Positions 14,883 to 48,075 of a DNA stretch of 64,000 nt are shown piece after piece. Position 1 is the stretch's first letter, and every line of letters begins with the position of its first letter. A program made the translations under genes and the position numbers. The notes below the pieces were generated by a model that was not told the DNA's origin, did not search any database, and saw only the letters and a program-made list of their open reading frames with translations. This stretch comes from Caldinitratiruptor microaerophilus (lineage in GTDB: Bacteria > Bacillota > Sulfobacillia > Symbiobacteriales > ZC4RG38), in contig NZ_AP025628.1 in assembly GCF_025999835.1 (NCBI RefSeq), positions 868,001 to 932,000 on the forward strand, given 5' to 3'.

Positions 14883-14885
14883 GGG

Positions 14886-15440: not shown

Positions 15441-15447
15441 CCGTGCG

Positions 15448-16786: not shown

Positions 16787-16887
16787 GGGGTTCACCTCCG
16801 GTGAGTCGGATTGCAGCCGGGCTGGGTCGGCGGGCGGCGCCCGGCTGCGGGCAGGGATGGCCGGCATGGGATCACCTCCCGTACGGG

Positions 16888-17664
16888 TCAAGGGCGGGCA
16901 AGCGAGTGGAGCGAGGCCAGGAGGATCGGCCCGCCGATCACCACCGCCAGGTTGAAGAGCCCAAGCATGGCGATGAGGGCGAAGGCGGCGGGCATCCGGC
17001 GGGAGACCTCCCGGACCTCGGCCTCCGCCGTACGGCGGAGGGAGTCGGACAGGGTGGCGAAGGCCTCCTGGCCCGTGGCGCGAGCCTGGAGCGCGGCGGC
17101 AAGCCGCGCGGCGACGGCGGCCATCTCGGGGCGGCCGGTCACCTGACCCAGAGAGTGGACCGCAGCGGAGAAGTCCTGGCCGAGTGCCGCCCGGGCGAGG
17201 GCCTGCTGCACCTGTAAGCGGAGGGGGCCGGAGAGGAGGGGGGCGGCCCCGGCGAGGGCTCTGAGTGGCGTGTCACCGGCGGCGAGGTGGATCTCCAAGA
17301 GGTCGGCCAGCATGGGCAGCTCCCGGAAGATCTCGGCCTGCCAGCGCCGGTACTCGCCCTCCAGGGACCAGAGGGACAGGCCGGCCACGGCGAGGGCGAG
17401 CAGAAGCGCCTTGAACCCGAGCGCGGGCAGGAAAAGGAGCGCAGCCAGAATGCCGCCCAGGATCAGGGCGACCGCGCTGGTGGGCGGCCACCCTACGGCG
17501 TCAAGGCGCGCCTGGACCGGGCGCGGCAGGCGAGCGGCCAAAGCGTCCGACCATGCTTGGCGCCGGATGAGGGGCACCCGCCGCGGCCGGAGCGGCGGCG
17601 GCGCGAGCAGGGTGTAAGCGAAGGCGGTGACGCTGGCGACGAACAGGACGAAGGCGGGGATCAT
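16888..17664 (-). CDS. tadC: TadC-like inner-membrane platform protein (GspF domain)
   Basis: 258 residues, with membrane helices at the N-terminus (FVLFVASVTAFAYTLL), near residue 65 (LILGGILAALLFLPALGF) and at the C-terminus (ALIAMLGLFNLAVVIGGPIL). The cytoplasmic GspF-type stretch is ELPMLADLLEIHLAAGDTPL. Family knowledge: TadB and TadC form the pilus platform with the TadA ATPase. It overlaps tadB by 4 nt. Confidence 0.85.
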   Translation of the reverse strand: MIPAFVLFVASVTAFAYTLLAPPPLRPRRVPLIRRQAWSDALAARLPRPVQARLDAVGWPPTSAVALILGGILAALLFLPALGFKALLLALAVAGLSLWSLEGEYRRWQAEIFRELPMLADLLEIHLAAGDTPLRALAGAAPLLSGPLRLQVQQALARAALGQDFSAAVHSLGQVTGRPEMAAVAARLAAALQARATGQEAFATLSDSLRRTAEAEVREVSRRMPAAFALIAMLGLFNLAVVIGGPILLASLHSLARP

Positions 17665-18488
17665 GCGAGGGACCTCCCGGCGCGGACGAGGAGGAAGACG
17701 GAGAGGCTGGTGAGGGCGGCCGAGATAGGCACGACGAGGCGACCGGGGCCGAGCAGCGTGTCCCGGACGGCAGGCAAGGCGGCCGTCTCCTCGAAGAGGA
17801 GCACCACGGGGCCGGCGGCCAGGAGGAGTGCCATGAGACGGGCGCCGGCGACCTCGGCCCTTCGGTCAGCCTCCAGAACATGCTGCTCGTGCAGGGCCCG
17901 GCCCAGGCGCCGGAAGGCGGGCCCGACGTCCTGGAACTTGTACCGGGTGAGCTCGACCAGGCGGGCGAACAGGTGGACCTCGTCACGCCCGGGCGCGGCG
18001 GCTGTCAGGGCGGCACCCAGGGGCTCGCCGGTGGCGTGGCGGGCCAGGGCCTCGTGGAGGGCGGACTTCACCGGATCGGGCGCCCGGTCGGCCACCTGGG
18101 CGAGGGCGCGGAGGGGCGAGCCCGCCGCCTCCAGGAAGTCGGGGAACAGGTCGATGGCCACCCGCCAGGCGGCCCGAACACGGCGCTCCCGGAGGCGAAG
18201 GACGGTCTGCGTAAGGAGCTGCGCGAGCATCCAGCCGGCCGGCGCGGCAGCGAGTGCGGCTAGCACACTGCGGAAGAAGAGCCCGTACAGGGCTGCGGCG
18301 AGGGCCGCGGCGGCGAGCGCCGACGCCGCCCGGAGGAAGGGTATTGGCCGGGCAACTAGCCCAGGCAGCAGGGGTCTTGTGGAGCGGGGAGACCGGACTC
18401 GGGTGGGGGCGCGGAAGGCCTGCGGAGGGGTGAGGAGCAGGTACGTGCCGGCGAAGACCGCTGCCGCGAAGAGGAGGATGGGGATCAC
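17661..18488 (-). CDS. tadB: TadB-like inner-membrane platform protein
   Basis: 275 residues with the same GspF-type plan as its downstream neighbour: FPDFLEAAGSPLRALAQVAD in the cytoplasmic domain and hydrophobic segments at the start, near residue 55 and at the end. It is coupled to tadA (4-nt overlap upstream) and tadC (4-nt overlap downstream). Confidence 0.83.
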   Translation of the reverse strand: MIPILLFAAAVFAGTYLLLTPPQAFRAPTRVRSPRSTRPLLPGLVARPIPFLRAASALAAAALAAALYGLFFRSVLAALAAAPAGWMLAQLLTQTVLRLRERRVRAAWRVAIDLFPDFLEAAGSPLRALAQVADRAPDPVKSALHEALARHATGEPLGAALTAAAPGRDEVHLFARLVELTRYKFQDVGPAFRRLGRALHEQHVLEADRRAEVAGARLMALLLAAGPVVLLFEETAALPAVRDTLLGPGRLVVPISAALTSLSVFLLVRAGRSLA

Positions 18489-19816
18489 GGCTGCTCGTCC
18501 TCCCCCGTGCCGCCGAACTCCTCAGGGAAGGGGACGCCGAACTCCCAGGCGCGGCGGCGCCGGGGCGCCGTCAGGTGGGCGCGGTACTCGAAGTCGCCGA
18601 CGACGCGGCCGCCTGGGTCCAGGCCGCGGTAGCGGAAGCGGAAGAGATCCCGGAAAGGCTCGCCGCTGTCGAGGGAGCAGACCTCGACCACCCGGACCAC
18701 CTTGCGACTGCCGTCCTGGCGGAAGCGCCGGCAGAAAACGAGGAGGTCCAGCGTCTCGTGGAGCATCCGCCGGGTCTGGTCCTCGCTGAGCTGGAACCCG
18801 GCCCGCATGAGGAGGAGGGTGAGGCGGCGGATCACGTCCTCCGGCGAGTCGCCATGGAAGGAGGTGATGCCGCCCCGGAAAGCCGCGCTCATGGCCTCGA
18901 TGAGGTCGGCGGCCTCGTGGGGGCCGGTGAGTTCGCCCAGGACGAAGCGGTCGGGCCGGAGCTGGAGCGCGGCCCGGAAGAGCTCGTAGATGGGGATGGG
19001 GTCACGGGGTCGCTCGACGGCCTCCAGGTTGACAACGTGGAGGTCCGGGTCGCCCAGGACCAGCTCGGCGGCCTGCTCGACGATGACGAGGCGCTCCTCC
19101 GGGGAGACGAAGCGCAGGAGGTTGCGAATGACCGTCGTCTTGCCGCTGCCGGTCTCGCCCAGGACGAGGATGTTGAGCCTGGCCCGTACGGCGAGGGCGA
19201 AGAAGTCGAGCATGTCCGGGGTGAGAGAACCCAGTGCGACGAGCTCCTGGGGCCCGATGGGCCGCCCGGGGGACGGGGGCTTGCGGATCGCCATGACGAC
19301 CCCCTGTCGGGTGGCGGGCGCCTGGACGATGCGGACCCGGATGCCGCCTTCCAGGGTGAGGAGGGCAAGAGGGCGGTTCTCGGTGAGCTCCCGCCCGGCC
19401 TGGGCGGCAAGGCGCTGGGCGAGGTGGAGGAGCTCGGGGCCGGAAACGTCGATGGCGGCGCGCTCGAGGCGGCCGGCCCGCTCCACCCACACGGAGCCGG
19501 GGCCGTTGACGAGCACTTCGGTGACGGTGGGGTCGTCCACCAGGGGTTGGAGCTTGCCGAAGCCGAGGACCTGGCTGGCGAGCTGGCGGGCCAGGGCGTC
19601 GCGCTCGCCGGAGGTGAGGCTCTCCATCCGGAGGGCGGCGGAAATGGCCTCCCGGGCTTCCTGGGCGGCCCCCGGGTCCGCCAGGGCGCGGGCAACGGCC
19701 GGGGCGTGACGCTGCAGTAGCCGGGCGGTGACGAGTTCCCCAGCGCTGGCCGTCCGGTGGCCCTCGTGGGTACGGCGCCGACGAAGGATCTCGTCGTGCA
19801 GGTTGACCTTAGCCAC
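18485..19816 (-). CDS. tadA: TadA/CpaF-type secretion ATPase
   Basis: 443 residues from GTG 19816. Walker A is GETGSGKTTVIRNL (around residue 222). An Asp box and Walker B region lie in RLVIVEQAAELVLGDPDLHV. The His-box segment FRGGITSFHGDSPEDVIRRL matches CpaF-type ATPases (normally TGSMSTIHANSP; here GITSFHGDSP). The N-domain has VTEVLVNGPGSVWVERAGRL. Family knowledge: a cytoplasmic hexamer that powers Flp pilus assembly. The gene overlaps cpaE by 8 nt. Confidence 0.93.
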   Translation of the reverse strand: MAKVNLHDEILRRRRTHEGHRTASAGELVTARLLQRHAPAVARALADPGAAQEAREAISAALRMESLTSGERDALARQLASQVLGFGKLQPLVDDPTVTEVLVNGPGSVWVERAGRLERAAIDVSGPELLHLAQRLAAQAGRELTENRPLALLTLEGGIRVRIVQAPATRQGVVMAIRKPPSPGRPIGPQELVALGSLTPDMLDFFALAVRARLNILVLGETGSGKTTVIRNLLRFVSPEERLVIVEQAAELVLGDPDLHVVNLEAVERPRDPIPIYELFRAALQLRPDRFVLGELTGPHEAADLIEAMSAAFRGGITSFHGDSPEDVIRRLTLLLMRAGFQLSEDQTRRMLHETLDLLVFCRRFRQDGSRKVVRVVEVCSLDSGEPFRDLFRFRYRGLDPGGRVVGDFEYRAHLTAPRRRRAWEFGVPFPEEFGGTGEDEQP

Positions 19817-20687
19817 GGCCGACCACCTCCCGGGTCCGGCGGCGGAAGAGGCGGGTCAGGAAGCCGTGACGGGGGGCCGCCGGGGCTTCGGTGCCGAGGG
19901 CGTCGGCGGCCAGGCGGGCCCAGGGGTTGTCCGGCTTGCCGTTCAGGCTGAGGCCGCAAGGCTTTCCCTCCTGGACGGCGCGCAGGTAGGCCAAGGGCTG
20001 GGCCGGGATGACGGCCCGGGCGCGCAGGCCCAGGTACTGTTCGATGGCACTCACGGGGATGCCGTAGCCGGGCAGGTAGCGGTTGACGACGAGGCGCACG
20101 CGGTCCCGGGGGATGCCGGCGTCGGCGGCGAGGCGGAGGGCCTCCCAGGCCGTCTCCACCGCGACGCGGTCCTGGTCCACGACGAGGTAAACCAGGGTCG
20201 CGGCACGCAGGGCGGCGAAGGTGGTGGCTTCGTCGATGGGCGAGGCGCAGTCCGCCACCACCACGTCCCAGGCGTCGAGGCAGGCGGCGATCAGGCGGTC
20301 GGCCTCTTCCGCGCCGAGGCTGAGGAGGTCGGAGGGGGAGGCGGTGAGGACGTGGACGCCCGGGGCCCCGGGGGCCGGGCGGGCGTGGTGCCGGACGGTG
20401 TCGGTGGTGACCGCCTCCCCGAGGAGCGTGGCCAGACCGCCGGGCGAAGCGAGCCCGAAGTGGACACCCAGGGCGGGCGCCCGGAGATCGAGGTCGAGGG
20501 CGAGGACCGGCCGCCCGGTTCGGGCGATGGCGGCGGCCAAGTTGGCGGCGACAGTGGACTTTCCGACCCCGCCCTTGGGGCCCCAAACGGCGCAGAGGAG
20601 CCGGGGTCGGAAGCTGGGGGCCACGGGAGGCGGGTCGGATGGCGATGCGGCCCGCCCGAAGGCGGGCCGGGGCACGGAGAGCGACAT
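19809..20687 (-). CDS. cpaE: CpaE-like MinD/ParA-family ATPase of the Tad system
   Basis: ATG 20687 after GGAGG gives 292 residues. The deviant Walker A GPKGGVGKST lies near residue 36. Switch regions DLDLRAPALGVHFGL and VVADCASPIDEATTF follow, then RLVVNRYLPG. No receiver-like N-domain is present, unlike classical CpaE. Family knowledge: localises the pilus machinery. First gene of the tightly overlapping cpaE-tadA-tadB-tadC set. Confidence 0.87.
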   Translation of the reverse strand: MSLSVPRPAFGRAASPSDPPPVAPSFRPRLLCAVWGPKGGVGKSTVAANLAAAIARTGRPVLALDLDLRAPALGVHFGLASPGGLATLLGEAVTTDTVRHHARPAPGAPGVHVLTASPSDLLSLGAEEADRLIAACLDAWDVVVADCASPIDEATTFAALRAATLVYLVVDQDRVAVETAWEALRLAADAGIPRDRVRLVVNRYLPGYGIPVSAIEQYLGLRARAVIPAQPLAYLRAVQEGKPCGLSLNGKPDNPWARLAADALGTEAPAAPRHGFLTRLFRRRTREVVGRG

Positions 20688-20740
20688 GCGGGGCCTCCTT
20701 TCGATGCATCTTCTCGCGGCGCCCAGCTCAGCGGGCCAGG

Positions 20741-20782
20741 TTGACTCTTGCCCGTCAGCGTTGTATGATGATGTCACACATC
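20741..20782 (+). promoter_or_regulatory. Promoter and operator of the RelBE-like module
   Basis: TTGACT (20741-20746), a 17-nt spacer and TATGAT (20764-20769) make a strong sigma-A promoter. A perfect inverted repeat GATGT-CAC-ACATC follows at 20770-20782, in the right place for an autorepressor. It lies in the divergent gap with cpaE. Confidence 0.8.
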
Positions 20783-20801
20783 GCGCGCGGAGGGATAGCC
20801 A

Positions 20802-21053
20802 ATGGCCACGCTCTCGGTCCGGGTCCCGGACGAGCTGAAGCGTGTCCTGGAAGCCCGGGCGAAGGGTCAGCATCGTCAGCCTTCGGACCAGGTGCGGCGC
20901 TACCTGGAGATCGCCATGATCGCCGAAGACAACCCGGACCTGTCGTTCCAGATGATCGAGGCGATCCTTGAGGCCCAGGCAGAACTGGACGCGGGGCTTG
21001 CCGAGCCGTACGAGTTCGGGGACGTCGGCGGAGATGCAGGGGTTCAGGGTTGA
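20802..21053 (+). CDS. RHH-type antitoxin of a RelBE/ParDE-like module
   Basis: 83 residues starting MATLSVRVPDELKRVLEARA, a ribbon-helix-helix N-terminus, with an acidic tail (AELDAGLAEPYEFGDVGG) that would wrap the toxin. Its 3' end overlaps the toxin by 20 nt. With its partner it is one of the few rightward genes inside the leftward block, so it has its own promoter (20741-20769). Confidence 0.83.
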   Translation: MATLSVRVPDELKRVLEARAKGQHRQPSDQVRRYLEIAMIAEDNPDLSFQMIEAILEAQAELDAGLAEPYEFGDVGGDAGVQG

Positions 21054-21330
21054 GGCCGCCCCCAGGTTCAACCGGATGGCGAAGAAGCTGCCGCCTGAGG
21101 TCAAGCGGGCCTTGGATGAGGAGATCCGCCGCATCGCCGAGAACCCGTACAAGGGGGACCGAAAGAAAGGCGTCCTTCGGGACGTGTTCGTGGAGAAGTT
21201 CGAGGCGCAGAGCGCCAGGTGGCTTCTGGCGTATCGTGTCCAACCAGATCGTCAGGTTGTGCAGCTCTTGGCCATCGGGCAGCACGAGAACTTCTACCGG
21301 GATCTGAGCCGGTACCTCAGCGGGAGGTGA
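21034..21330 (+). CDS. RelE/ParE-type toxin
   Basis: 98 residues from ATG 21034. The pattern FRVEAAPRFNRMAKKLPPEV, LDEEIRRIAENPYKGDRKKG and ARWLLAYRVQPDRQVVQLLA with a terminal HENFYRDLSRYL is the RelE/ParE fold. Family knowledge: RelE toxins cleave ribosome-bound mRNA and ParE toxins poison gyrase; which applies cannot be told from sequence alone. Confidence 0.85.
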   Translation: MQGFRVEAAPRFNRMAKKLPPEVKRALDEEIRRIAENPYKGDRKKGVLRDVFVEKFEAQSARWLLAYRVQPDRQVVQLLAIGQHENFYRDLSRYLSGR

Positions 21331-24690: not shown

Positions 24691-26535
24691 TCACTCCACG
24701 AGGCCCAAGCCCCGGGCCTGCTCGGGGTCGATGAGCGCGAGCTCGTGGGGCGCCGCCTCGATTCGCACGCGCACCCGCTGGTTGCCGGCGATCAGCAGCC
24801 CCTCACCGCGCCGTGCGCTGGCCAGGAGGTCCTTCTCGGCCTCGGTGAGGTTCAGGAGGGGGGCGAGCTTCTCGAGGTCGCGCTCCCCCTGGCGGAGGAG
24901 GAGCTTGTAGGTGGCGTTGCCGATCACCGCCTCCCCCTGGCGGGCCACCTCGGGGGCGAGGAAGTCGACGACGTTCTGCGTGATGGTGACGATGGCGCCG
25001 TTGTACTTGGCGATGCGCTTGGAGAGCTCGCGAAGGAAGTCGAGGGCGGCCGGCACCTGGGGGTCGGCGAGGAACCAGGCTTCGTCCACGACGAGGAGCT
25101 TGCGCTCCGACTGGCGGTCGCGGCGGATGAGGTCCCAGGCGAAGCCCAGGACGTTGAAGTACTGGGCGCGGCGCACGGGCTCGGCGAGGTTGTGGAGGTT
25201 GTGCACGTCCAGGACGATGACGTCCGCGTGCTCGGGGACGGTGGTCTGGCCGGCCCACAGCTCGGCGTCGGTCCCCTCGGCGGCCGGGCGCAGGAGCACG
25301 GCGAGGCGGTCCCAGCGCCCGGGGTCGCGGCGGGCGCGCTCCTGGAGGCGGGCGTGGAGGTCCCGGGTGGTGGGCCAGACGGGGACGGCGGCCGGGTCGG
25401 TGTCCCAGGTGACGCCGAACTCGGCGTAGAGGGCGAGGAGGGAATCCTCCAGGGCGGCACGCTCGAGGTCGGTGAGGTCGCGCAGGTAGAGGTGGAAGAA
25501 GGTCCGCACGCGCTGGAGGTGCAGGGCCAGGGGGCTACCGAGGCGCCCGGCGCCGGCGGTCTCGTCCGGCTCCCTGGGCACCGGGCGCACCTGCAGGGGG
25601 TTGATCACCCCGCCCCCGCCGGCGACGTCGACCCACGAGCCACCGAGCTTCTCGCAGAGGGGCTTGTACTCCCGCTCGGGGTCGATGAAGAGGACCCGGG
25701 CGCCGAGCTGGTACTCCCGCAGGGCCATGACCTTGACCGCGAAGGACTTGCCGGCGCGGGTGCGGGCGAGGACGGTCATGTTGGGGCCATCGGCACCAGC
25801 GTCGGGCGGAGGGCTCCAGCGGTTGACGAGCACCACGCCGCCCTGGGCGTCTCGGCCGAAGACGATGCCGCTGCCGTGGTTCAGCCCGCCCCCCACGAAG
25901 GGGAAGGCGCCGGCGACGGTCTCGCTGGGGAGGTGCCGGGGGGCGGCCTGGCGGACGGGCTCCGGTAGCCAGGCCCAGGGCCCGGCGGCGGTGAGGCCCT
26001 CCTGCTGGAGCCAGGCGAGGGTGCGGGCCCGCATGCCGGCAGCGGCCGCCGCGGCCTCGACCCGGCGGGTGCGCCGGTCCAGCTCCTCGGGGTCACGTCC
26101 CAGAACGAGGAGCACCACGACGGCGACGAAGACCTGCTGCTGCTCCTGGTCGATCTTGCGGAGGAGCTCCTGGGCATCCCGGAGGCTCTGCTCGGTGCGC
26201 TGGACGATGAGGGCGTTCCGAGGTCCGCCCTGAAGGCGCGCCGAGAACTCCAGGATGCTGCGATTGAGCTGCTGCACCAGGGCGTCCGGGTCGGTGGGGA
26301 CCAGGTGGAGGCTGCCGACAACGCCGGGGAGACCGAACAGGCGGGCCAGCCAGGCCGGGCCAGCCTTGGGCGGGTACCCGGTGATGGCCAGGACCCGGCC
26401 GAACTGGTCGCCGAAGGTGAGGCGGTGGCGCTCGAAGTCAAGTCCGGCAGGGGCGATGAGGTCGGCGAGCCCCGGGGCCAGGAGGGGCGGCGCGGGGGTA
26501 CGGGCCGGCGGGGTCTGGCGGCGGAGGGCGATCAC
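24691..26535 (-). CDS. virB4: VirB4/TraE-type conjugation ATPase
   Basis: GTG 26535 overlaps the stop of the upstream gene (GTGA), giving 614 residues. Walker A is unusual: VLARTRAGKSFAVKV (the first Gly of GxxxxGKS is Ala). Walker B is KLLVVDEAWFLADP near residue 435, followed by GAIVTITQNVVDFL, a VirB4-specific motif. LARLFGLPGVVGSLHLVPTD belongs to the N-domain. Family knowledge: the energising ATPase of type IV secretion. The VirB4 N-terminal part seems split onto the upstream gene. Confidence 0.92.
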   Translation of the reverse strand: MIALRRQTPPARTPAPPLLAPGLADLIAPAGLDFERHRLTFGDQFGRVLAITGYPPKAGPAWLARLFGLPGVVGSLHLVPTDPDALVQQLNRSILEFSARLQGGPRNALIVQRTEQSLRDAQELLRKIDQEQQQVFVAVVVLLVLGRDPEELDRRTRRVEAAAAAAGMRARTLAWLQQEGLTAAGPWAWLPEPVRQAAPRHLPSETVAGAFPFVGGGLNHGSGIVFGRDAQGGVVLVNRWSPPPDAGADGPNMTVLARTRAGKSFAVKVMALREYQLGARVLFIDPEREYKPLCEKLGGSWVDVAGGGGVINPLQVRPVPREPDETAGAGRLGSPLALHLQRVRTFFHLYLRDLTDLERAALEDSLLALYAEFGVTWDTDPAAVPVWPTTRDLHARLQERARRDPGRWDRLAVLLRPAAEGTDAELWAGQTTVPEHADVIVLDVHNLHNLAEPVRRAQYFNVLGFAWDLIRRDRQSERKLLVVDEAWFLADPQVPAALDFLRELSKRIAKYNGAIVTITQNVVDFLAPEVARQGEAVIGNATYKLLLRQGERDLEKLAPLLNLTEAEKDLLASARRGEGLLIAGNQRVRVRIEAAPHELALIDPEQARGLGLVE

Positions 26536-29793: not shown

Positions 29794-32361
29794 TTACTGG
29801 CTTGCGTGGCGTGGCGGGTACGCGAAGTCGACGCCGCTGCCGTCGCGCCGGAGCACGAGGGCAGCGCTGAACCGGTTGCCGGTCCGGCTGCGGAAGCCGT
29901 CCAGGACCGGTGTCTGACCGTCCCGGAGGAGGGCGGCGAGTTCCTCGTGGGCCAGGGCACGGCCGGCCACCGCGCGCCGGACGTTCAGGCGGCAACCGGG
30001 GCCGGTGCAGCGAACGGCGAACCGGCCCAGCTCCAGAGGGCTGCCGCACAGGGGGCAAGGCGGCAGGTCCGGCGGGCCCGGCTGTGTCCCCGTGGGAGCC
30101 TCGTGCGCGCCGGCTTCGGCGGGAGGGCGCTCCCCCGTGTGACCCCGCCGCGCTCCGCGCGCCCAGAGAGGCACGCGTCCCCCAGGCCCGGGAGGGGTTT
30201 CCGCCACGTCCGGGCCCGTGGCCTCGGGGCTTTCCCCCGCTGAGTGATCGCCATCCATGCCGCGCGTGCCCCCGGTGTCGGCAACGCTCGCGACGGCCGC
30301 CCAAACCGGGGTGCGGGCGCGGCCGCCCGTCCCGGGGGGAGGAGCCGAGCCCGGGGCAGAGCCCTGCCCGCCGGGGGCGCCCGCGCTCGCGTCGTGGCCA
30401 GTGCGGGGGTCAGCCGGCACAGAGGACGCGGCGCCGTCGTCGGGGGGTGATGCGGCCACGTCGGATGGCGCGAAGGATTCGCCGGCCAGGAGCTGTGCCA
30501 GGGTGGAGGCCGCGCCGGCGAAGGGCACGGGAGACCAGAGCGGGGGCGGCCCGTCGTCTTGCCGCACGGGCGGAGGGGATCCGGGCGCCTCGAAGTCCAT
30601 GGCGAAGGGCCAGGCGGCCAGGTCGGGCAGCGGCAGGCGGACCGGGTGCTGGCCGGACTGGAGGACGAGGGCCTGTCCGGCGGGCCAGCGCAGGACCTCG
30701 TCGGGGGTGAGGAGGCTGCGGCCGGAGAGGTGCTCGCTGCTGCCCGTGCTCAGGTCGTTCCGGCGGGCGGTGGTGGAGCCGGTGCGGGTGCGGATCGTGT
30801 ACTGCCCGAGCTTCTCGGCGATCTCCTTGGCGGTCTCCCGGTCGGCCGTGCGGAGGAAGATCCAGGTGTCGCAGTTGGCGGCAATCACGGCGGCCGTCTC
30901 CTTGCCGTACCTGGCGGCGAGCTGGGGCAGCGCTTGGAGGATCATCACCGCGGCCATGCGGCGCCCCCGCATGACGGCGACCATCTTGTCCCAGTCCCGG
31001 ATCTTGCCCAGGTTGGCGAACTCGTCGAGCACCCAGTACAGGGGCACCGGCAGGCTTCCGCCGGTCGCGTGGGCCAGGCGGACGAGGGCACTGTACATCG
31101 GGGCGATGTACAGGGCGGCGATGGGGTTGCGGGTGCTGCGGTCGTCGGGGATGAGGAGGTAGACGACGGTGGGCCGGCGGCCGGGGTCGGCAAGGTCGCC
31201 GCCCTGACGGGCCGTCATGCGGGCGACGGCGGGATCGGCGAAGAGGCGGAGCTTGCTGGCCGCCGTGGTGAGGACGCCCGCCCGGGTCTTGTCCTGGCTG
31301 AGGCGGACCGTGCCGTAAGCCTGCCGGGCCGGGTGATCTTCCGGGAGGGCGTCCATGAGGAAGTCCAACTCCGCGCCGGTGTCCGCGCCCGACGTGCTCA
31401 GCAGATGACACACGCTGGCCATGTGCCGGGCTTCGGCCGACGCCTGGGTGGCGACGTACAGGGCCAGGGCGGCGATGAGGGCCTCGGCGGACTGGGCCCA
31501 GAAGGGGTCCTTGCCGTAGGGGTCGGCTCCGGAGGCGTCCCCGGTGACGAGGGTGTGCGCCAGGTCCCAGGCGAGCTGGGAGGCGTAATCGAGGTCCCCG
31601 GCCGCGGCCGCCGCGGCCACGGCCGCCAGCGGGTTGTAGGGGTCGGAACGGGCGGGGTCGATGAGGTTGAGGGTGCGTACCTGGTAGCCCTGGCGGCGGA
31701 AGTGGTCGGCAGTGGCAGCGTAGAGCTCGCCCTTGGGGTCGGTGACGACGATGGAGACGCCCGCCTGCCCCAGCAGCCACAGGGTCGGGAGGACGAGGCG
31801 GCGGGTCTTGCCGCTCCCGGGCGAGCCGATGACGAGGACGTGCGGGTTGACGGTGGGCGAGGGGACGCTGACCCAGGCGGCCATGCGCCGGCCCCGGCCG
31901 GCGGCGCCCAGCACGACGCCGGCAGGCGGCGGTCGCGAGGCGGTGCCCTCCAGGAGAGGTCGCACGGGCACCCGGGCGAGGGTGCGCCGGATCTCCTCCG
32001 GGCGGCGCCAGCGGGCCGTCCCGTGGGCGCCCGAGGGGTCGGGTGGCGGGGCCACCCCCGCCGGGCCGCGAACGGACCGCCGCCCGAACGGGTCCGGGAG
32101 GAGGAGCCAGAGCGCTCCGACGCCGACGAAGCCCTGGAGGATGAGCCAGCCGGTACGGGCCGAGCGGTCGGCGTCCGTACGGGGGGCCAGGAGACTTGCG
32201 GCCGCCCGCAGGGGGTGGCGCAGCCATCCGTCGCGCCAGTCGGCGATCCGTGCGGGCCGGCGTCCGGGCACGGGGAGGTAGGGCGGGAGGCGGGCGAGGG
32301 CGGGGAGCAGGCGGAGGTCCGCCACGAGCAGGAGCGCGAGGAGGGCGAGGCGGACGCGCAA
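29794..32361 (-). CDS. VirD4/TraG-type coupling protein with a topoisomerase-III-like C-terminal module
   Basis: TTG 32361, 9 nt after GGAGG, gives 855 residues. Two N-terminal membrane helices (LALLALLLVADLRLLPALAR and GWLILQGFVGVGALWLLLP) come first. Walker A is VIGSPGSGKTRRLVLPTLW and Walker B PLYWVLDEFANLGKI. TraG motifs VVTDPKGELY and ALPQLAARYG follow. After a 150-residue Gly/Pro/Ser linker comes a C-terminal zinc finger (CPLCGSP, CTGPGCRLNV) and the repeat TPVLDGFRSRTGNRFSAALV ending GSGVDFAYP. That tail is the same module that ends TopB at 4585. Family knowledge: the coupling protein pumps relaxase-DNA into the channel. The tail is not part of normal VirD4 and may bind single-stranded DNA. 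Confidence 0.9.
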   Translation of the reverse strand: MRVRLALLALLLVADLRLLPALARLPPYLPVPGRRPARIADWRDGWLRHPLRAAASLLAPRTDADRSARTGWLILQGFVGVGALWLLLPDPFGRRSVRGPAGVAPPPDPSGAHGTARWRRPEEIRRTLARVPVRPLLEGTASRPPPAGVVLGAAGRGRRMAAWVSVPSPTVNPHVLVIGSPGSGKTRRLVLPTLWLLGQAGVSIVVTDPKGELYAATADHFRRQGYQVRTLNLIDPARSDPYNPLAAVAAAAAAGDLDYASQLAWDLAHTLVTGDASGADPYGKDPFWAQSAEALIAALALYVATQASAEARHMASVCHLLSTSGADTGAELDFLMDALPEDHPARQAYGTVRLSQDKTRAGVLTTAASKLRLFADPAVARMTARQGGDLADPGRRPTVVYLLIPDDRSTRNPIAALYIAPMYSALVRLAHATGGSLPVPLYWVLDEFANLGKIRDWDKMVAVMRGRRMAAVMILQALPQLAARYGKETAAVIAANCDTWIFLRTADRETAKEIAEKLGQYTIRTRTGSTTARRNDLSTGSSEHLSGRSLLTPDEVLRWPAGQALVLQSGQHPVRLPLPDLAAWPFAMDFEAPGSPPPVRQDDGPPPLWSPVPFAGAASTLAQLLAGESFAPSDVAASPPDDGAASSVPADPRTGHDASAGAPGGQGSAPGSAPPPGTGGRARTPVWAAVASVADTGGTRGMDGDHSAGESPEATGPDVAETPPGPGGRVPLWARGARRGHTGERPPAEAGAHEAPTGTQPGPPDLPPCPLCGSPLELGRFAVRCTGPGCRLNVRRAVAGRALAHEELAALLRDGQTPVLDGFRSRTGNRFSAALVLRRDGSGVDFAYPPRHASQ

Positions 32362-32420
32362 AGGACAGCACCTCCAAGTCCGCATGGGGGGCGGGCGGGA
32401 CGGTGCGGGGCGAAAGGAGC

Positions 32421-32520
32421 GTACCCAAAACGTACCGGAAATGTACCGCACGGAGAGGGGAGGAACCGGCAGACGAAGGCGAGAGGTACAGAAACGGTAC
32501 GGAAAGGGTACGAAAAAACC
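32421..32520. repeat. Two triplets of 11-bp GTAC iterons: candidate parC centromere or oriT-like site
   Basis: GTAC cores occur at 32421, 32432, 32443 and again at 32486, 32497, 32508: two clusters of three, exact 11-bp period, 43 bp between them. Left units read GTACC-CAAAAC and GTACC-GGAAAT; right units AGGTACAGAAA, CGGTACGGAAA, GGGTACGAAAA. A weak seventh copy (CCTAC) falls at about 32519. The array lies right after the ParM/small-protein operon and before the coupling protein. One-turn phasing in two clusters is the layout of R1 parC. Confidence 0.7.
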
Positions 32521-32555
32521 TACAGGCGCTGTTTGCACGGCTGTGGAAGCGGTGG

Positions 32556-32828
32556 TCAGGAATCGCCAAAGAAGTCTTGGGCGAGGACTTGCGCCAGCTT
32601 GGGTGACGACGCGGGCGCGGCGGCCGGAGGCGGGCGGGTGCCCGGGGCTGCGAGCGCGCCCCGGAGCGCCAGGGCGAGGAGCGTCAAGGCGGCCGTGATA
32701 GCGCCGTGCGCGTCGCTCCCGTAAAGGGCCAGCACCTCCGCGGGAGGGCCCGGGGGTACCTCGTAGAGGAGACGATCCCCCGGCTGGATCGGCCGACGCT
32801 TGCGCCGAACGGCGTTGCGCGTGCCCAT
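32556..32828 (-). CDS. Small basic protein after ParM: candidate ParR-type adaptor
   Basis: ATG 32828 overlaps the parM stop (ATGA), giving 90 residues. The N-terminus is highly basic (GTRNAVRRKRRPIQPGDRLL), followed by YEVPPGPPAEVLALYGSD and a hydrophobic helix (GAITAALTLLALALRGALAA). Position and size fit the ParR component of ParMRC systems, which is a small RHH protein binding iterons next to the operon; the iteron array is 35 bp downstream. No direct sequence signature of RHH is certain, so this is inference from context. Confidence 0.5.
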   Translation of the reverse strand: MGTRNAVRRKRRPIQPGDRLLYEVPPGPPAEVLALYGSDAHGAITAALTLLALALRGALAAPGTRPPPAAAPASSPKLAQVLAQDFFGDS

Positions 32829-33913
32829 CACGCCACCACGGCCTCGGCGCGGCCCCAAGCCCGGTGCCACAGGCCTGCCGCGTTGGCCCACAGGGGGTCG
32901 TCAGCCAGGGTTACGGGCAGCCGGCTCGAGTCTTGCAGGTAGGGTGCCAGCAGGAGGCCTCCGCCGCCGATCAGGAGGAGGCGCGTGACGTTGCCGGCCC
33001 GCGAAACCGCCTCCGTGACGAGTCGGGTCACGTCCCGGGCGAGGCGCGTCAGCTCGTGCCGGGCGACGTCGGTGAGGTCGTAGGGCCGCCCCAGCCCCCA
33101 GAGCACGACCGGCCCCCCGGTCCGCGCCGCCTCGTGCAGGGCGTTCAGCACGTCGCCGCGGTGGCGGGCGACGTGAGGGCCGTGCCGCTGGCGAGCCGCC
33201 GCAAGGATGCGGTCCGCGGCGGTGGCCAGGCCGCCGTCCGTCGTGCCGCCGGAAGGGCCGGGCTGGAACCGGCCCTGGGTGAAGATCGCCCAGTCGACAG
33301 AGCGCACGCCCACGTCGACGACGGCAACGGTTTCGTCGAGGAGCCCGGGGTCCAAGGCCGCCATCGCCAGGAAAGCGGCAGCGCCTTCGGGGATCACGTC
33401 CACCATGTCGACCACCAGGTCGAGGGAGCGGCCATCCCACGGAGGGGTCGAGAGCCAGCGCACGGTGTGGCGGCCGCGGAGGCGAGCGGCCAGGGTCTGC
33501 CGGGCCGCTGGGTCGGCGGCCTCGGCCATGGGCAGGGCGACGGCCAGGCTCAAGCGGGCCACGGTGGTAAGACGGTCGGTGCGGTGAACGGCCGCGGCGA
33601 GAGCCGTGAGGGCGAGGAGCAGCAGGCGGTCGCTCCCGGCCTTGCGCTCGCCGGCTTCGACCTCGAGCACGCGGTCGGGGTACTCACGGAGGGCGAGTTC
33701 GCCGGCGAAGATCTGCCGGGGGCCGTCGAGAAAGGGCGCTCGGATCTCGGCGTGCAGGTGCTGCACGGGGTCTTCGCCGGGGGACAGCATGTACAGGTCC
33801 CGGTGGACGCCCTCCGCAGGGGCGAGGGCGTGCGGAACGAGGAGCCGGTCCCCGGGGCGGGGACCGGCCAGCTTGAGCAGGCCATTACCCAGGTCGAGGC
33901 CGACTGCGATCAT
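32828..33913 (-). CDS. parM: ParM/Alp-type actin-like partition ATPase
   Basis: ATG 33913 gives 361 residues. Actin-fold motifs: phosphate-1 AVGLDLGNGLLKLAG at the N-terminus, phosphate-2 VAVVDVGVRSVDWAIF near residue 196, and the adenosine motif RLLLIGGGGLLLAPYL near residue 320. Family knowledge: ParM-like proteins form filaments that push plasmid copies apart. Overlaps the upstream small ORF by 4 nt and the candidate ParR downstream, forming a par operon inside the mobilisation region. This suggests the element replicates or once replicated as a plasmid. Confidence 0.88.
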   Translation of the reverse strand: MIAVGLDLGNGLLKLAGPRPGDRLLVPHALAPAEGVHRDLYMLSPGEDPVQHLHAEIRAPFLDGPRQIFAGELALREYPDRVLEVEAGERKAGSDRLLLLALTALAAAVHRTDRLTTVARLSLAVALPMAEAADPAARQTLAARLRGRHTVRWLSTPPWDGRSLDLVVDMVDVIPEGAAAFLAMAALDPGLLDETVAVVDVGVRSVDWAIFTQGRFQPGPSGGTTDGGLATAADRILAAARQRHGPHVARHRGDVLNALHEAARTGGPVVLWGLGRPYDLTDVARHELTRLARDVTRLVTEAVSRAGNVTRLLLIGGGGLLLAPYLQDSSRLPVTLADDPLWANAAGLWHRAWGRAEAVVA

Positions 33914-34161
33914 GGCTTCTCCGTCCTTCCGTGGGCCGCCGGGTGGCCAGCGGCCAGGTCGTCGAGGGTGAGTTGGCGCCCGGCGGGGGTCACCGCGGGT
34001 GAAGCGCCCGCCGGCTCGCCCAGCCACGCGGCAGGCACCGGCAGAGCCAGGAGCGCTTCTCGCTCCGCTTCCAGCCGGTCACAGGCTGGCCCGAGCTCGT
34101 GCTCGAGGTATCCAGCGAGGTCAGATAGGGATCGGCAGGGGCGCACGTCAATCCCTCCCAC
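33910..34161 (-). CDS. Small protein between relaxase and parM
   Basis: 83 residues starting MGGIDVRPCRSLSDLAGYLE, predicted mostly helical (EHELGPACDRLEAEREALLA) with a C-terminal GRQLTLDDL. It overlaps the relaxase end by 14 nt and parM by 4 nt, so it is coupled to both. No family recognised. Possible relaxosome accessory or partition regulator. Confidence 0.55.
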   Translation of the reverse strand: MGGIDVRPCRSLSDLAGYLEHELGPACDRLEAEREALLALPVPAAWLGEPAGASPAVTPAGRQLTLDDLAAGHPAAHGRTEKP

Positions 34162-35308
34162 GCCCGTCGCGCCGGCGGGCGCGCTCCTCCTCGGTAGGAG
34201 CCCGCTCCTCGGCGCGGCGTTGGGCTTCGCTCAGGGCCGCGCTGGCAGCCAGAAGGAGGCCCCGCACAGCTCCGAGCGCGACCGGCGGAACCGTGGGGGC
34301 AGTAGACGGGACGATCGGCCCTCCCCGGATGTCCCGGTTCAGCTGTGCGGCGGCCCGGACGATGAGCTGGGCGATTCGGCCCCGGAGGTCTCGCATCGCT
34401 TTTTGCTCGGCGACGTCCAGAGCGCGGTTCCTGGACGTGTACAGCCCCGCCATCTGCCGGACGGTCTGGCGGTACAGATTCACGGCGGCCGCCAGGGACG
34501 GGTGTTGGAGGAGGCGCTCGGCAACCCGGAGAGCTTCGTCTTTCACGTCCTGGGGCATGAAGGCGAGGACGGCCCGACCGCGGCCAGGCATGCGGCCAGC
34601 GAGGGTCAGGAGCCGGGAGGCGAGTTCTTGCTCCAGAGGAGACGGCTTCGGACCCGAGAGCCGGCCGGGGGCTTGCAAAGCCTGACCTGCCCGAGCCCGG
34701 AGCGCCCTGCGCCGGGCACCGGCCTGAAGGGCGAGGGAAATGCTGTGTTGGAGCACGTCGTTCGCGGCAACGCGCAGGGAATCACGAAGGATGGTCTTGC
34801 GGGCCGCCAGGGGCGCGCGAACGGGGGCCAGCACCTGGCGCGCCCATGCCTGCCGGACCTCCCTGAGCTCGGCCGGCCGGAGCTTGCCTTGCCGCCGGGT
34901 AGGCGGGTCCTCCCAGAGGACGACGTGGAGGTGCGGGTGGCCAGGGGCCCGGTGCAGGGCGGCCGCCCACCGTACAGCCCCAGGGTCGAGTCCCATGCGG
35001 GCCGCGATCTGCGGCACGGCCAGACGGGCCAGGCGCTCCCAGTCGGCCCGGGCCTGGTAACCCCAGCGGAGGGCATCGTCCTCCCGCAGGCTCAGGACGA
35101 GGCGCCAGACGGGACCGGTATGGTCACGGACAGCCCTCTGCACCTCGACCCGGTCGGGGGGCCTTTGGGGATCGGGGCCGAAGAGCGCCCGGCCCACGCG
35201 GCCGCCGTCCGCCCCGTGGGTGGCGATGTAGTAGACGTGTGCGGCGTTGCGGGCGCCGATGGTGGGTCCGGGCTCGCGGAAGCTCAACTTGGCGACGGGG
35301 ATGGCCAT
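34148..35308 (-). CDS. MobP-type relaxase
   Basis: 386 residues. The metal-binding HxH motif of relaxases is HRAPGHPHLHVVLWE near residue 121. The N-terminal region (RNAAHVYYIATHGADGGRVG, with two Tyr residues) is where the catalytic tyrosine would be, and WRLVLSLREDDA follows. The C-terminal half is helical and Arg-rich. Family knowledge: relaxases nick oriT, stay bound to the 5' end and lead the strand through the channel; MobP3-like proteins in Bacillota are of this size. First large gene of the leftward transfer operon; oriT is expected nearby but was not identified. Confidence 0.82.
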   Translation of the reverse strand: MAIPVAKLSFREPGPTIGARNAAHVYYIATHGADGGRVGRALFGPDPQRPPDRVEVQRAVRDHTGPVWRLVLSLREDDALRWGYQARADWERLARLAVPQIAARMGLDPGAVRWAAALHRAPGHPHLHVVLWEDPPTRRQGKLRPAELREVRQAWARQVLAPVRAPLAARKTILRDSLRVAANDVLQHSISLALQAGARRRALRARAGQALQAPGRLSGPKPSPLEQELASRLLTLAGRMPGRGRAVLAFMPQDVKDEALRVAERLLQHPSLAAAVNLYRQTVRQMAGLYTSRNRALDVAEQKAMRDLRGRIAQLIVRAAAQLNRDIRGGPIVPSTAPTVPPVALGAVRGLLLAASAALSEAQRRAEERAPTEEERARRRDGRGRD

Positions 35309-35647: not shown

Positions 35648-35743
35648 GGCCGTTCATGAGATGTGACCGGTCCGCTGGCGCTGAAGGGGCGCAGCCCGTG
35701 GTAAGGATGCGCCCCAGAGTCCGAAATGCAGGGCCGGCAGCCA

Positions 35744-36070
35744 CTAGAATCCACCAGGGCCGTACGGGTGGTTGACCCCGGGGCTGTGAACGAACTCCCG
35801 GTAGAGGCGCCACCACCAATGCTCGTAGTCCTCGATATACCGGAAGACGGGAAGGTCGAGCCGGCACGTGGGCCGGCTCTTCAGGTCCCGTAACCGGTGG
35901 AGCAGACGGTAGCCCAGGATGAACGCCGTGACCGCCTGGCCGCGCCGGACCCCATCTCCGGTCGTGGCCTGCCGGATGGCGGCCTCCAGCAGGTCGAGCA
36001 GGTCGGTGATCTCGTACCCGTAAAGCCGGAGTGAAACCCCGGCGTGTTGCAGGCGAAAGTCTGTCACCAC
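35744..36070 (-). CDS. Small protein of the AAA/DDE transposon-like unit
   Basis: 108 residues from the GTG at 36070, which overlaps the AAA ATPase end by 7 nt. Helical part LYGYEITDLLDLLEAAIRQA and an aromatic-rich tail (YIEDYEHWWWRLYREFVHSP). Not recognised. Overlap with the ATPase indicates it belongs to the transposition operon. Confidence 0.5.
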   Translation of the reverse strand: MVTDFRLQHAGVSLRLYGYEITDLLDLLEAAIRQATTGDGVRRGQAVTAFILGYRLLHRLRDLKSRPTCRLDLPVFRYIEDYEHWWWRLYREFVHSPGVNHPYGPGGF

Positions 36071-36897
36071 GGGCTACCTCCTCTGGGGGCCTGGGTATCC
36101 TGCAGCTCCAGCAGCACCCGCTCGACGTGGGCCTCCTCCACTAGGCGCTGGTCATGGGCGCAAGCGTCCAGGAGGCAGCTCGTGCAGATCGTGTTGATGA
36201 CCCGCGGGATGCCCCGGGACTCCGTGACGATCTTGCGCAGGGCCTGCTCGGAGAAGAGGGGCCGGTCGGCGCCGGCCAGGTGGAGATGGTGCTGGATGTA
36301 GGCCAGAGTCTCGGCCTCCCCGAGGCCGGTGAGGTGGAAGCGCACCTGAACCCGCTGGGCGATGGCCTCGAAGGTGCGAAGCCGGAGCAGCCCCCGGAGT
36401 TCGCTCTGGCCGGCGAGGATGAACGTCAGCGGCGAGATGGAGTCCATGTGGAAGTTCAGGAGGAAGCGGACCTCCTGGAGCATGGCGCCGCTGAGGAGGT
36501 GGGCCTCGTCGATGACGATCACTGGCTGACGGCCGTTGGTGGTGTAACCGTCCAGGATGGTGCGCTCGAAAAGCCGTTTCACCTCCCGCCCGTGGAACAG
36601 AGAAGGCGGGGCCACCCCAAGCTGGGTGAGCACGTCTCGGTAGAACGCGCTGGGGGTGAGACGGGAGTCGGCGATGTACACGAACAGGTGGCGGGTCCGG
36701 TCGAGCTGATCGTACAGGGCCCGGATGGCGGTGGACTTCCCGGCGCCGACCTCACCCGTGACGACCGCGAACGCGCGGTGGCGGATGGCGTACTGGAGGC
36801 GAGCAAGCAGTTCCTGGTGCTGGGGAGCGGGGAACAGCCGGTCGGTGGGAATCTCCCTGGCGAAGGGCACCGCTTTGAGGCCGAAGTACTCGGTCAG
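36064..36897 (-). CDS. TniB/ExeA-like AAA ATPase of a DDE transposon
   Basis: Walker A is VVTGEVGAGKSTAIRALY, Walker B PVIVIDEAHLLSG, sensor ILAGQSELRG. The family's N-terminus (LTEYFGLKAVPFAREIPTDR) is only present if translation starts at the CTG at 36897, which overlaps the transposase stop as CTGA; that gives 277 residues. A GTG at 36870 is the next candidate but would cut the conserved start. Family knowledge: TniB/MuB/TnsC-type ATPases bind target DNA and activate a DDE transposase. Works with 36894-38266. Confidence 0.85.
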   Translation of the reverse strand: MTEYFGLKAVPFAREIPTDRLFPAPQHQELLARLQYAIRHRAFAVVTGEVGAGKSTAIRALYDQLDRTRHLFVYIADSRLTPSAFYRDVLTQLGVAPPSLFHGREVKRLFERTILDGYTTNGRQPVIVIDEAHLLSGAMLQEVRFLLNFHMDSISPLTFILAGQSELRGLLRLRTFEAIAQRVQVRFHLTGLGEAETLAYIQHHLHLAGADRPLFSEQALRKIVTESRGIPRVINTICTSCLLDACAHDQRLVEEAHVERVLLELQDTQAPRGGSPW

Positions 36898-38266
36898 CGT
36901 GACGGCTCACCGTCCTTGTGGCCGACCAGGCGAGCGTAAGAGGTCTGACCCAGGCGGCGCTGCTTCTCGGCCTCGTGGTGCTTGCGGGCCAGGGTGAGGA
37001 AGTTCATCCCGTCGCTGGACGGGGGTTGGGCCGGGGCAGGGACGGCGTGGTGGTGAGTGCGGCGGAGCTGGAGGGGGGCAGCGTCCGGGAAACGCTTTCC
37101 CTCGTGCCAGACCTGGATCTGGCTGAGGTCGTAGGGGTCGTAGCGCAGGAGCACCCGGTGGCCGCTGAGGGCGGCGTCGACCTCGTAGCGGTTCCCATGC
37201 AGGGAGAAGCATCCGGTCTTGTCGACGACCCGCTGCTCCTCCCAGAGGAACACCTCCCGCAGGGCCGTAGGGTCGATGCGGCGCAAGGGCTCGGTGTCCG
37301 CCTCGAACCGCTGGCGGGGGGTCTGGTGGGTGCTGCCGTGGGGGCGACTGAGGTAGGCCACCTCGAGCCAGGCCCAGAAGAACTCGTTGAGTTCGTCCAG
37401 GGTGCGGAGCTGGCCGGCTTCGACCAGCGCGTGCGCTTCGGGCGGACGTACTGGAAAAACTTTTCAACCTTTCCCCGCCCCTGGGGTCGGTAGGGGCGGG
37501 AGTGGCTGAGGCGGATCCCGAGCTTGGCGCAGATCCGGGCCAGGTGGCGGGTGGAGTAGATCGCCCCGTTGTCCACGTAGATCTGGCGGGGCAGGCCGTA
37601 GCGGAGGATGGTGCGTTTGAGGCAGTCCTCCAGGCGGGGGAGCTTCTCCTCGAAATACATCTGGCCGTAAACGACTCGGCTATGGTCGTCGAGGAAAGCC
37701 ATGAGGTAGACTTGGCGCCGCTTCCCGGGTTGTCCCGGCACCGGCAGCGACAGGGCGTGCAGGACGTCTCCTTGCCACAGGTCGTTGCGGTGTTGGGCCT
37801 CAAACCGGCGGAGCAAACTCCGGGCGGCTTTGCTGCGCAACTCCTGGCGGGTGCAGCCTGCCCGGGCCAGGTAGCGGCCCAGGGTGGTGCGTTTGAGACG
37901 CCCGGGTGCGACCTTTCCGTCCAGCTCGAGCAAGGCGATGATCTGTTGCACACTGCGGTCGGGCACCGCCCGCCGCAAGGCGATCGCCGCTTCCAGGACC
38001 TCCGGGGGAACGGCCCGTCCCTGGTCCGCATCCGCCCGGGTGTGCGGTTTGAGCCCCTCGAACCCGTGCTGCCGGTAGGCCTGGACCCAGCGCTGCAGCG
38101 TCCTGAGCCCGACTCGGGTCTTGTCACTGGAAGGGATCTCGTGCGGGTGCCCGGCGATCTCCCGCAACAGGCGCTGGCGCTCGGACGGGCTCAGGTTCTG
38201 GGTCAGTACGGGGGCGATGAGGCTCCAGCGGAAGGTGGCGATCTCTTCCCGCTGCTGCTCGTCCAT
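36894..38266 (-). pseudogene. DDE (rve) transposase, frameshifted
   Basis: ATG 38266 starts MDEQQREEIATFRWSLIAPV. Helix-turn-helix regions follow (GLRTLQRWVQAYRQHGFEGL, RLKRTTLGRYLARAGC). The catalytic core shows DDE: D in LWQGDVLHAL, D in IYVDNGAIYS, E in GRGKVEKFFQ. At about 37442 the reading frame moves by -1: in the original frame the sequence turns to Ser/Arg-rich nonsense, while the next frame continues PEAHALVEAGQLRTLDELNE and then VAYLSRPHGSTHQTPRQRF to a stop at 36894. A one-base loss (or sequencing error) explains this; no classic slippery heptamer is seen. Confidence 0.85.
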
Positions 38267-39174: not shown

Positions 39175-39543
39175 CCGCCCTGGTGCTGGCGTGCATCGCC
39201 GACCTGGACCTGCCTCCCGACCGGGTGAACGTCTGGGGCGGGGCGCTGGCCCTGGGACACCCGTACGCGGCCACCGGCGCCATCCTCCTGGTGCGGCTCC
39301 TCTACGGTCTGCACCGGACGGGCGGGCGGCTGGGTGCCGTCGCCCTGGGTAGTGCCGGGGGGCTGGGGATGGCGGCCCTGGTGGAGCGGGTGTGAGGGGG
39401 GACACGCGGTGATCGTGAGCGGCGGCGTGCAGGCGGCAGCCGCACGGGCGCCCGGGCGGACCGCCCTCGTGGCGGGCGCGTCCCGGCTGAGCTTCGGGGA
39501 ACTCGACCGGGCGATCGACGCGGCCGGGTCCGGGTTTCGGGCG
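39174..39543 (+). pseudogene. Transplanted fragment: thiolase 3' end plus acyl-CoA ligase 5' end
   Basis: This 370-bp stretch is about 97% identical to 47854-48222, across the end of the intact thiolase and the start of the intact ligase, including the intergenic gap. It encodes [16 protein letters not shown]... to the thiolase stop (39393-39395), then the ligase start ([20 protein letters not shown]) cut after DAAGSGFRA. It has no promoter or complete gene and is a dead copy. Confidence 0.92.
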
Positions 39544-46911: not shown

Positions 46912-48075
46912 GTGCGCGACGTCTTCATCCTGGGTGCGAAGCGCACCCCGGTCGGCAAGCGAAACGGCCGGTTCCGGTCGCTGCCGCCGGAGGCCCTGGC
47001 GGCGCCGGCGATCCGGGCGGCGATCGATCAGGCCGGGATCGGCCCGGAGGCGGTCGACGAGGTGATCTTCGGGAATGCGGTCGGGCCGGGCGGCAACATC
47101 GCCCGGCTCGCGCTGCTGCAGGCCGGGCTGCCGGTCCGGGTGCCCGGCTTCACGGTCGACCGGCAGTGCGCCGGCGGACTGGAGGCGGTCCGGCTGGCCG
47201 CGGCCCTCATCCGGAGCGGGGCGGGCCGGTGCTGCGTGGCCGGCGGCGTGGAGAGCACCAGCCAGGAGCCGGTCCGCCTTGCGCCGGACGGCTCCCGCCT
47301 GGCGCGTCCCCGCTTTGCGCCCCCTTCGCTGGGCGATCCCGACATGGGGGAGGCGGCGGAGGCGGTGGCCCGAGCGTACGGGATCCCGCGGGAGGCCCAG
47401 GACGACTGGGCCCGGCGAAGCCAGCAGCGCTTCCTGGCGGCGGCCGCCGCCGGGCTGTTCGACGAGGAGATCGTCCCGGTCCCGGTGCCGGGCCCGGGCG
47501 AGCCCCCTCGGGAGGTTGCCCGGGATGAGACCCTGCGCCGCCCGCTGCCGCCGGCTGCGCTCCGGCGGCTCCCACCCGCCTTCCGGCCCGACGGCACCGT
47601 CACGGCCGGCAACGCCTGCCGCCACAGCGACGGGGCGGCCGCGCTGGTCCTGGCCGGTCCGGAGGTCCTGGAGCGACCGGAGCCGGCTGCGTGCGGCGTT
47701 CCCCGTCCCCTCGGCCGGCTGGTCGAGGTCGTCGCCGTCGGGGTGCCTCCCGACCTTCCGGGCACGGGGCCGATGGCTGCGCTGCGGGAGCTGGTCGCCC
47801 GCACCGGGGTGGACCCCGGCGAGATCGACCTCTACGAGATCAACGAGCCCTTCGCCGCCCTGGTGCTGGCGTGCATCGCCGACCTGGACCTGCCCCCCGA
47901 CCGGGTGAACGTCTGGGGCGGGGCGCTGGCCCTGGGACACCCGTACGCGGCCACCGGCGCCATCCTCCTGGTGCGGCTCCTCTACGGTCTGCACCGGACG
48001 GGCGGGCGGCTGGGGGCCGTCGCCCTGGGCAGTGCCGGGGGGCTGGGGATGGCGGCCCTGGTGGAGCGGGTGTAG
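46912..48075 (+). CDS. Thiolase (acetyl-CoA C-acetyltransferase family), YhfS-like
   Basis: GTG 46912 gives 387 residues. VFILGAKRTPVGKRNGRF is the thiolase start. The nucleophilic Cys is in DRQCAGGLEAVRLAAALIRS, the NEPFA loop in [17 protein letters not shown], and [20 protein letters not shown] carries the active-site His. The usual C-x-G-G-G with the second Cys near the end reads [11 protein letters not shown], so the base Cys is missing. In B. subtilis the BirA regulon includes yhfU (bioY), yhfT and yhfS with the same gene content; by analogy this enzyme handles a biotin precursor acyl-CoA. Confidence 0.88.
   Translation: MRDVFILGAKRTPVGKRNGRFRSLPPEALAAPAIRAAIDQAGIGPEAVDEVIFGNAVGPGGNIARLALLQAGLPVRVPGFTVDRQCAGGLEAVRLAAALIRSGAGRCCVAGGVESTSQEPVRLAPDGSRLARPRFAPPSLGDPDMGEAAEAVARAYGIPREAQDDWARRSQQRFLAAAAAGLFDEEIVPVPVPGPGEPPREVARDETLRRPLPPAALRRLPPAFRPDGTVTAGNACRHSDGAAALVLAGPEVLERPEPAACGVPRPLGRLVEVVAVGVPPDLPGTGPMAALRELVARTGVDPGEIDLYEINEPFAALVLACIADLDLPPDRVNVWGGALALGHPYAATGAILLVRLLYGLHRTGGRLGAVALGSAGGLGMAALVERV

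Follow-up and report, generated by a model that had tools for sequence, protein, structure and literature searches.

Downstream of a relaxase gene in Caldinitratiruptor microaerophilus lie a gene for an actin-like protein, a small basic gene that overlaps it, and an array of short direct repeats, and the question that they raise is whether the three form a plasmid-type partition module or whether the array serves transfer, transcription, or replication. We analyzed the 64,000-nucleotide stretch of DNA that contains them (the window). As this stretch lies inside one 3.6-Mb contig, the copy of the element that it carries is chromosomal. Genes were mapped with a home-made gene caller and Pfam.

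Gene order around the array

The operon on the minus strand starts with a gene for a TniB-like ATPase (36064–36870) and continues with small genes, a MobL relaxase gene, a 78-aa gene, parM, a 90-aa gene, and the array. After the array come the genes for VirD4, TrbL, VirB4 (24691–26535), an M23 peptidase, Tad-pilus-like proteins, a topoisomerase, and a resolvase. The features at the center of the analysis are as follows.

34148–35308, minus strand: MobL-family relaxase, upstream in the operon (Pfam MobL, E = 5e-7)
33910–34146, minus strand: small gene (78 aa) separating relaxase and parM, with a 4-bp overlap with parM and no Pfam match
32828–33913, minus strand: parM, actin-like NTPase of 361 aa (Pfam ALP_N and MreB-like_C)
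32556–32828, minus strand: probable parR, basic adaptor of 90 aa (pI 10.4; placed after parM, whose stop it overlaps)
32485–32517, unstranded: iteron cluster 2, units GGTACAGAAAC GGTACGGAAAG GGTACGAAAAA
32453–32484, unstranded: spacer of 32 bp separating the clusters (43 bp from GTAC to GTAC)
32420–32452, unstranded: iteron cluster 1, units CGTACCCAAAA CGTACCGGAAA TGTACCGCACG
29794–32361, minus strand: VirD4/TraG coupling protein, downstream of the array (T4SS-DNA_transf, E = 1e-69)

The site therefore does lie between a relaxase and a coupling protein, as the initial annotation had placed it. Relatives of the relaxase are 34 to 45% identical to it.

An array of phased GTAC repeats

The GTAC motifs start at 32421, 32432, and 32443 in one cluster and at 32486, 32497, and 32508 in the other, which gives spacings of 11, 11, 43, 11, and 11 bp. 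When the 11-bp units are aligned, GTAC and an A four bases on are present in all six, and the position after this A is also A in five of them. The pattern GTAC-N7-GTAC-N7-GTAC occurs twice in the 64-kb window and was absent from 100 dinucleotide-preserving shuffles, and a scan of the whole 3.6-Mb genome returned only the two sites of the array (control, 0). Positions, shuffles, and genome scan thus bear out the earlier description of six GTAC iterons in two triplets with an exact 11-bp period. The corresponding scan of viral contigs was swamped by chance matches and was set aside.

Short A-tracts recur through the array at helical intervals of 10 to 12 bp, and its GC content is 54%, compared with 74 to 77% in the surroundings. 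The array is located in a 194-bp gap, 3' of the 90-aa gene and directly upstream of virD4. Although the virD4 reading frame stays open across it, 11 is not a multiple of 3, and the repeats are therefore not of codon origin. By type, the six 11-bp units are direct repeats of the kind found in the centromeres of type II partition systems, with a putative role as centromere.

An actin-like ParM and a small basic neighbor

The 361-aa protein matches ALP_N (E = 3e-10) and MreB-like_C (E = 1.5e-6), both beyond the curated cut-offs, and its family profile matches the solved Ta0583, Dh-cParM1, pCBH ParM, pSK41 ParM, and R1 ParM. Its sequence places it among the actin-family NTPases of the ParM/Alp group, the type that serves type II partition, and filament formation is putative. 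Relatives share only ~25 to 31% identity with it, and a search of genome contigs with ParM gave no relative. The same genome holds a second actin-like ParM gene (L068; C1:201393–202373) without a recognizable ParR, which is perhaps a chromosomal cParM; genes like it are present in genomes of the same order.

The 90-aa gene shares a single base with the parM stop (TGATG). With this overlap, the basic pI of its product, and the Pfam matches above, the pairing of parM with an overlapping small basic gene that was noted at the outset holds. An N-terminal segment of the 90-aa protein, about residues 19 to 57, looks ribbon-helix-helix (RHH)-like, and its C-terminal tail, LAQVLAQDFFGDS, is a putative contact for ParM. 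When the 174 ORFs of the window were compared with a model of the relatives' ParRs built without this protein, it ranked at the top with 12.5 bits versus 6.4 for the next ORF. It is 39% identical in a global alignment to the small protein of a related parM locus (L067), and BLASTP between the two gave no match. Neither a Pfam search nor fold searches of the PDB with both small-protein models found a match, and tblastn of the 90-aa protein against the relatives returned no convincing homologue. Its AlphaFold2 model was poor (pLDDT 63) and contained no strand. A profile of the window and L067 pair aligned weakly with other ParRs in hhalign (probability 3%, E = 0.015). Another hhalign comparison, of profile A5 with A7 (97.6%), was dropped for the sequences that the two had in common and was redone with the disjoint profile A8; it then gave 93% with the window protein included, the signal coming mainly from the other members.

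Most of the mobile-type parM loci that we examined have a small gene downstream whose product has an RHH-like N terminus and an acidic/aromatic C terminus, and in many of these proteins the sequence suggests a beta-strand, then two helices, a linker, and a C terminus that is acidic and often contains FG. Such a gene was not seen at chromosomal-type parM loci, for example L068. The best PDB match of a profile of 16 relatives' small proteins was 2q2k (weak, E = 0.02), which we take to be ParR of pSK41; 2jd3, the StbB/ParR of pB171, was matched as well (weak, E = 0.27). Judging from its sequence and setting, the 90-aa protein is likely to be a ParR.

The locus in related conjugative elements

The backbone of the element (TadZ/TadA/CpaB, ParM, MobL, VirD4, TrbL, and VirB4) is common to pY0017 and pL15, circular conjugative plasmids of Sulfobacillus thermotolerans, at identities of 45 to 46% for VirB4, 42% for VirD4, 33 to 36% for MobL, 35% for TadA, and 34% for CpaB. 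Strain Kr1 of the same species has a related integrated plasmid-like ICE (PMC6803676). The two plasmids and the Kr1 region thus resemble the window in their conjugative backbone, which includes an annotated ParM/StbA, and both plasmid and integrated forms are known (PMC6803676). However, parM of pY0017/pL15 is located upstream of the relaxase gene, the backbone proteins are only roughly 25 to 46% identical, and the repeats, GTGACGGCA, are spaced by 58, 41, and 59 bp in the interval from parM to the small gene, unlike those of the window. Similar backbones are present in elements of many thermophilic Bacillota, and VirB4 relatives with 49 to 61% identity come from Moorella, Thermosediminibacter, Thermoanaerobacter, Desulfoscipio, Syntrophomonas, and others; a scan of viral contigs for VirB4 gave no match.

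The order MobL–ParM–small gene–VirD4 also occurs in several elements of the class with a close backbone (L058, L060, L063, and L064). In L061, extra small ORFs separate the small gene from VirD4, and some relatives have parM at another site or none detected. The closest ParM on a named plasmid (30% identity) is encoded by pDSM3922.1 of Alicyclobacillus acidoterrestris (L053), where, as in the window, the small gene overlaps parM and the repeats are 3' of the small gene. In contrast to the window, this plasmid has seven copies of GCATGGC, mostly about 57 bp rather than 11 bp apart, and a small gene of 129 aa. Upstream of parM in several class relatives (L058 7340–7560 and similar), we also noticed CCGTCCGCAC repeats together with a hairpin (CGCTTCTCCGTCCGC / GCGGACAGAAGCG in L060), possibly the oriT or parC of those elements.

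Many relatives carry element-specific repeats, either between parM and the small gene or after the small gene, and the repeated word differs from element to element. When the regions flanking parM were run through a phased-triplet detector, triplets with an 11-bp period came up only in the window and L067. The order in L067 is parM–parR–11-bp triplet, with AACGACG three times right after its parR and the first copy overlapping the stop codon, the same place as the array in the window; given the number of loci examined, chance may account for part of this 11-bp match. Of the relatives, only L067 thus shows the conserved 11-bp spacing for which the initial annotation proposed to look, and in most of them parM and a small gene are retained together with other repeats. 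Homologous elements without phased GTAC repeats had been named as grounds against the partition reading, and such elements literally exist, yet we do not take them as a refutation, since different words are expected if each ParR recognizes its own parC, as shown for Clostridium perfringens plasmids (PMC9426499).

Alternative roles of the array

An origin of transfer and a replication iteron site had both been raised as alternatives for the array, and both now appear less likely. As an oriT or part of one, it would be bound by a relaxosome protein auxiliary to the MobL relaxase, and the small gene would encode an RHH auxiliary of the pLS20 kind. The relaxase gene does lie upstream in the same operon, and two auxiliary proteins of the RHH type are present in the founding MOBL plasmid, pLS20: the region bound by Aux1 has TGGTACCA, which contains the same GTAC core, and the second protein probably binds three direct repeats (PMC5675868). 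Aux1 and Aux2 are thus, like the type proposed for the window protein, small RHH proteins of a MOBL plasmid, with GGTACC in one binding region (PMC5675868). However, their genes are found upstream of the relaxase gene next to oriT with no actin gene beside them (PMC5675868), whereas the array and the small gene of the window are downstream of the relaxase gene, and the latter overlaps parM. No inverted repeat was found in the array gap (32340–32580), while a candidate oriT hairpin at 35686–35715 (11-nt arms, 8-nt loop) sits upstream of the relaxase gene, in the gap before the small gene that precedes MobL; a search for a shared motif upstream of MobL that would locate oriT found none. Moreover, the small gene and repeats of the relatives accompany parM even when parM is not beside the relaxase gene, and we consider an oriT role quite improbable.

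The array could instead be mainly an operator of the virD4–virB4 operon, to which the small protein or some other regulator binds, with no task in segregation. Its place directly upstream of virD4 suits such a role, and ParR-type proteins commonly repress promoters inside their own centromere (reviewed in PMC5016525). However, a search of 31900–34200, made for promoters of the sigma-70-like type only, found none. Among the relatives, some have repeats in the interval from parM to the small gene, at a distance from virD4, and others leave no gap between the small gene and virD4. We therefore regard the operator as quite unlikely to be the main function, although the array could serve partition and also act as an operator of the transfer genes downstream of it. 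As for a replication origin (oriV) left from a plasmid that was once autonomous, it would look much like this, with direct iterons in a patch richer in A+T than the GC-rich element around it and with a backbone common to plasmids. No replication initiator gene was recognized beside the array or among the scanned window genes, however, and the repeats of the relatives go with parM and the small gene, which leaves an oriV very improbable indeed.

A putative parC within a transfer operon

With good confidence, we assign the locus to the type II (actin-type, ParMRC-like) partition modules; the conjugative element to which it belongs now resides in the chromosome. The partition module with a parC-like array that was originally proposed finds support in the order of the genes, the homology of ParM, the way in which the loci of relatives are built, and the precedent of srpMRC (PMC4489591). 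The array, which follows parR on its 3' side and directly precedes the T4SS genes, is likely to be parC. This assignment is drawn from architecture: the array fits by position and type, as the repeats of the relatives also lie beside parM and the small gene, each with its own word.

Among known systems, srpMRC of the SXT/R391 ICEs is located between traG and mobI and was shown to stabilize the element, and its small protein binds repeated sequences (PMC4489591). SrpMRC is proteobacterial, however, whereas the array of the window lies 3' of the small gene and consists of 3+3 direct repeats of 11 bp. R1 ParMRC shares with the window the ParM fold, a small adaptor gene downstream, and 11-bp direct repeats in two clusters that a spacer separates, although the two ParM proteins are only distantly related. 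R1 ParR requires at least two 11-bp repeats (PMC9426499). The parC of R1 has two sets of five repeats (PMC4949242), which flank the par promoter upstream of parM, whereas no promoter was recognized around the array of the window (31900–34200). Hence, the R1-like layout suggested at first is retained in the two 11-bp clusters, but not in the number of units, three each instead of five, or in their position, 3' of the small gene instead of 5' of parM.

In the mechanism that we propose, ParR dimers would bind the helically phased GTAC repeats, possibly aided by the phased A-tracts, and fold the array DNA into a partition complex. This complex would offer the acidic/aromatic C-tails of ParR to the end of a ParM filament, and sister copies would be driven apart by the filaments for as long as the element is outside the chromosome, be it after excision, during transfer, or as a plasmid. 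By analogy with the known systems, stabilization of the extrachromosomal element is the best supported function, and the module may possibly also help conjugation; R1 ParM binds TraI, TraD, and TraC (PMC4949242). Since the array is part of the transfer operon and directly precedes virD4–virB4, bound ParR could influence those genes or bring DNA to the transfer channel, which is only suggested here. The autonomously maintained phase that had been read from this locus is consistent with these findings, and pY0017 and pL15 are real plasmids. However, the copy in the window is chromosomal and ICEs can carry par loci, and such a phase is therefore one that we infer. Actin-type partition itself is already known, and the locus adds to its systems by bringing a partition module to the widespread, little-studied MobL/Tad conjugative elements, which are found as plasmids and in chromosomes. 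It also offers a compact adaptor–centromere pair for structural work.

Spacing of repeats at related parM loci

A spacing of 57 to 59 bp was first noticed and then counted on the same 28 loci of the class. With 1.2 to 1.4 loci expected, 12 of these parM–parR gaps contain repeated 7-mers at a distance of 57 bp and 12 at 59 bp; distances of 41 to 42 bp occur in 9 to 10. In shuffles of the gaps, no distance was seen in over 8 loci. A second set comprised 63 parM loci from across the phylum and had a few class genomes in common with the first. Downstream of parM, its most frequent distances were 57 bp (14 loci) and 58 bp (12 loci), with 1.5 to 2.0 expected, and upstream of parM these distances were not enriched. 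Compared with other distances in the same real sequences, 57/58 bp shows a modest excess, with 20 loci versus a median of 9 and 16 for the next best non-overlapping distance. The clearest cases are pDSM3922.1, in which the last six copies of GCATGGC are 57, 55, 57, 56, and 57 bp apart, and L176, with TTCCGGAA at 24, 58, 24, 58, 44, and 58 bp. Element-specific words spaced by ~57 to 59 bp near parM/parR were observed in many elements of Bacillota, at the loci L018, L054, L056, L112, L120, L132, L134, L053, L176, and L185; this spacing is absent from the window array.

The ~57-bp rule, unrecognized until now and moderately replicated in the independent set, is a hint taken from sequence comparison. 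As a tentative idea, toward which we lean somewhat less than away from it, actin-type modules of Bacillota conjugative elements may have a common centromere geometry in which changing words stand ~57 to 59 bp apart (roughly 5.5 helical turns), in pairs whose distance from each other varies and is often about 42 bp. A densified 11-bp variant of this geometry would then be present in the window and L067, and with the array of the window inside the transfer operon, one adaptor could couple segregation and conjugation. If the spacing is real, centromeres could be found without knowing the bound word, and the question would arise of how one adaptor fold serves both 11-bp and 57-bp sites.

Other features of the element

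The coupling protein (29794–32361) has a C-terminal topoisomerase-type zinc-finger repeat (Toprim_Crpt), like the element's own topoisomerase (4585–6783). The Tad-pilus-like genes TadZ, TadA, TadB/C, and CpaB (9879–21134) share the operon orientation of the T4SS genes and are also present in pY0017/pL15. Beside the TniB-like ATPase gene, a Mu/TniA-type transposase gene (36894–38266) is split into two overlapping frames, with rve at 37004–38266 and the Mu C-terminal domain at 36894–37361, and looks frameshifted. About 7.5 kb separate a fragment of a thiolase C-terminal domain (39183–39395) from a complete thiolase gene (46912–48075), and the fragment is a possible remnant of an element boundary or of a duplication.
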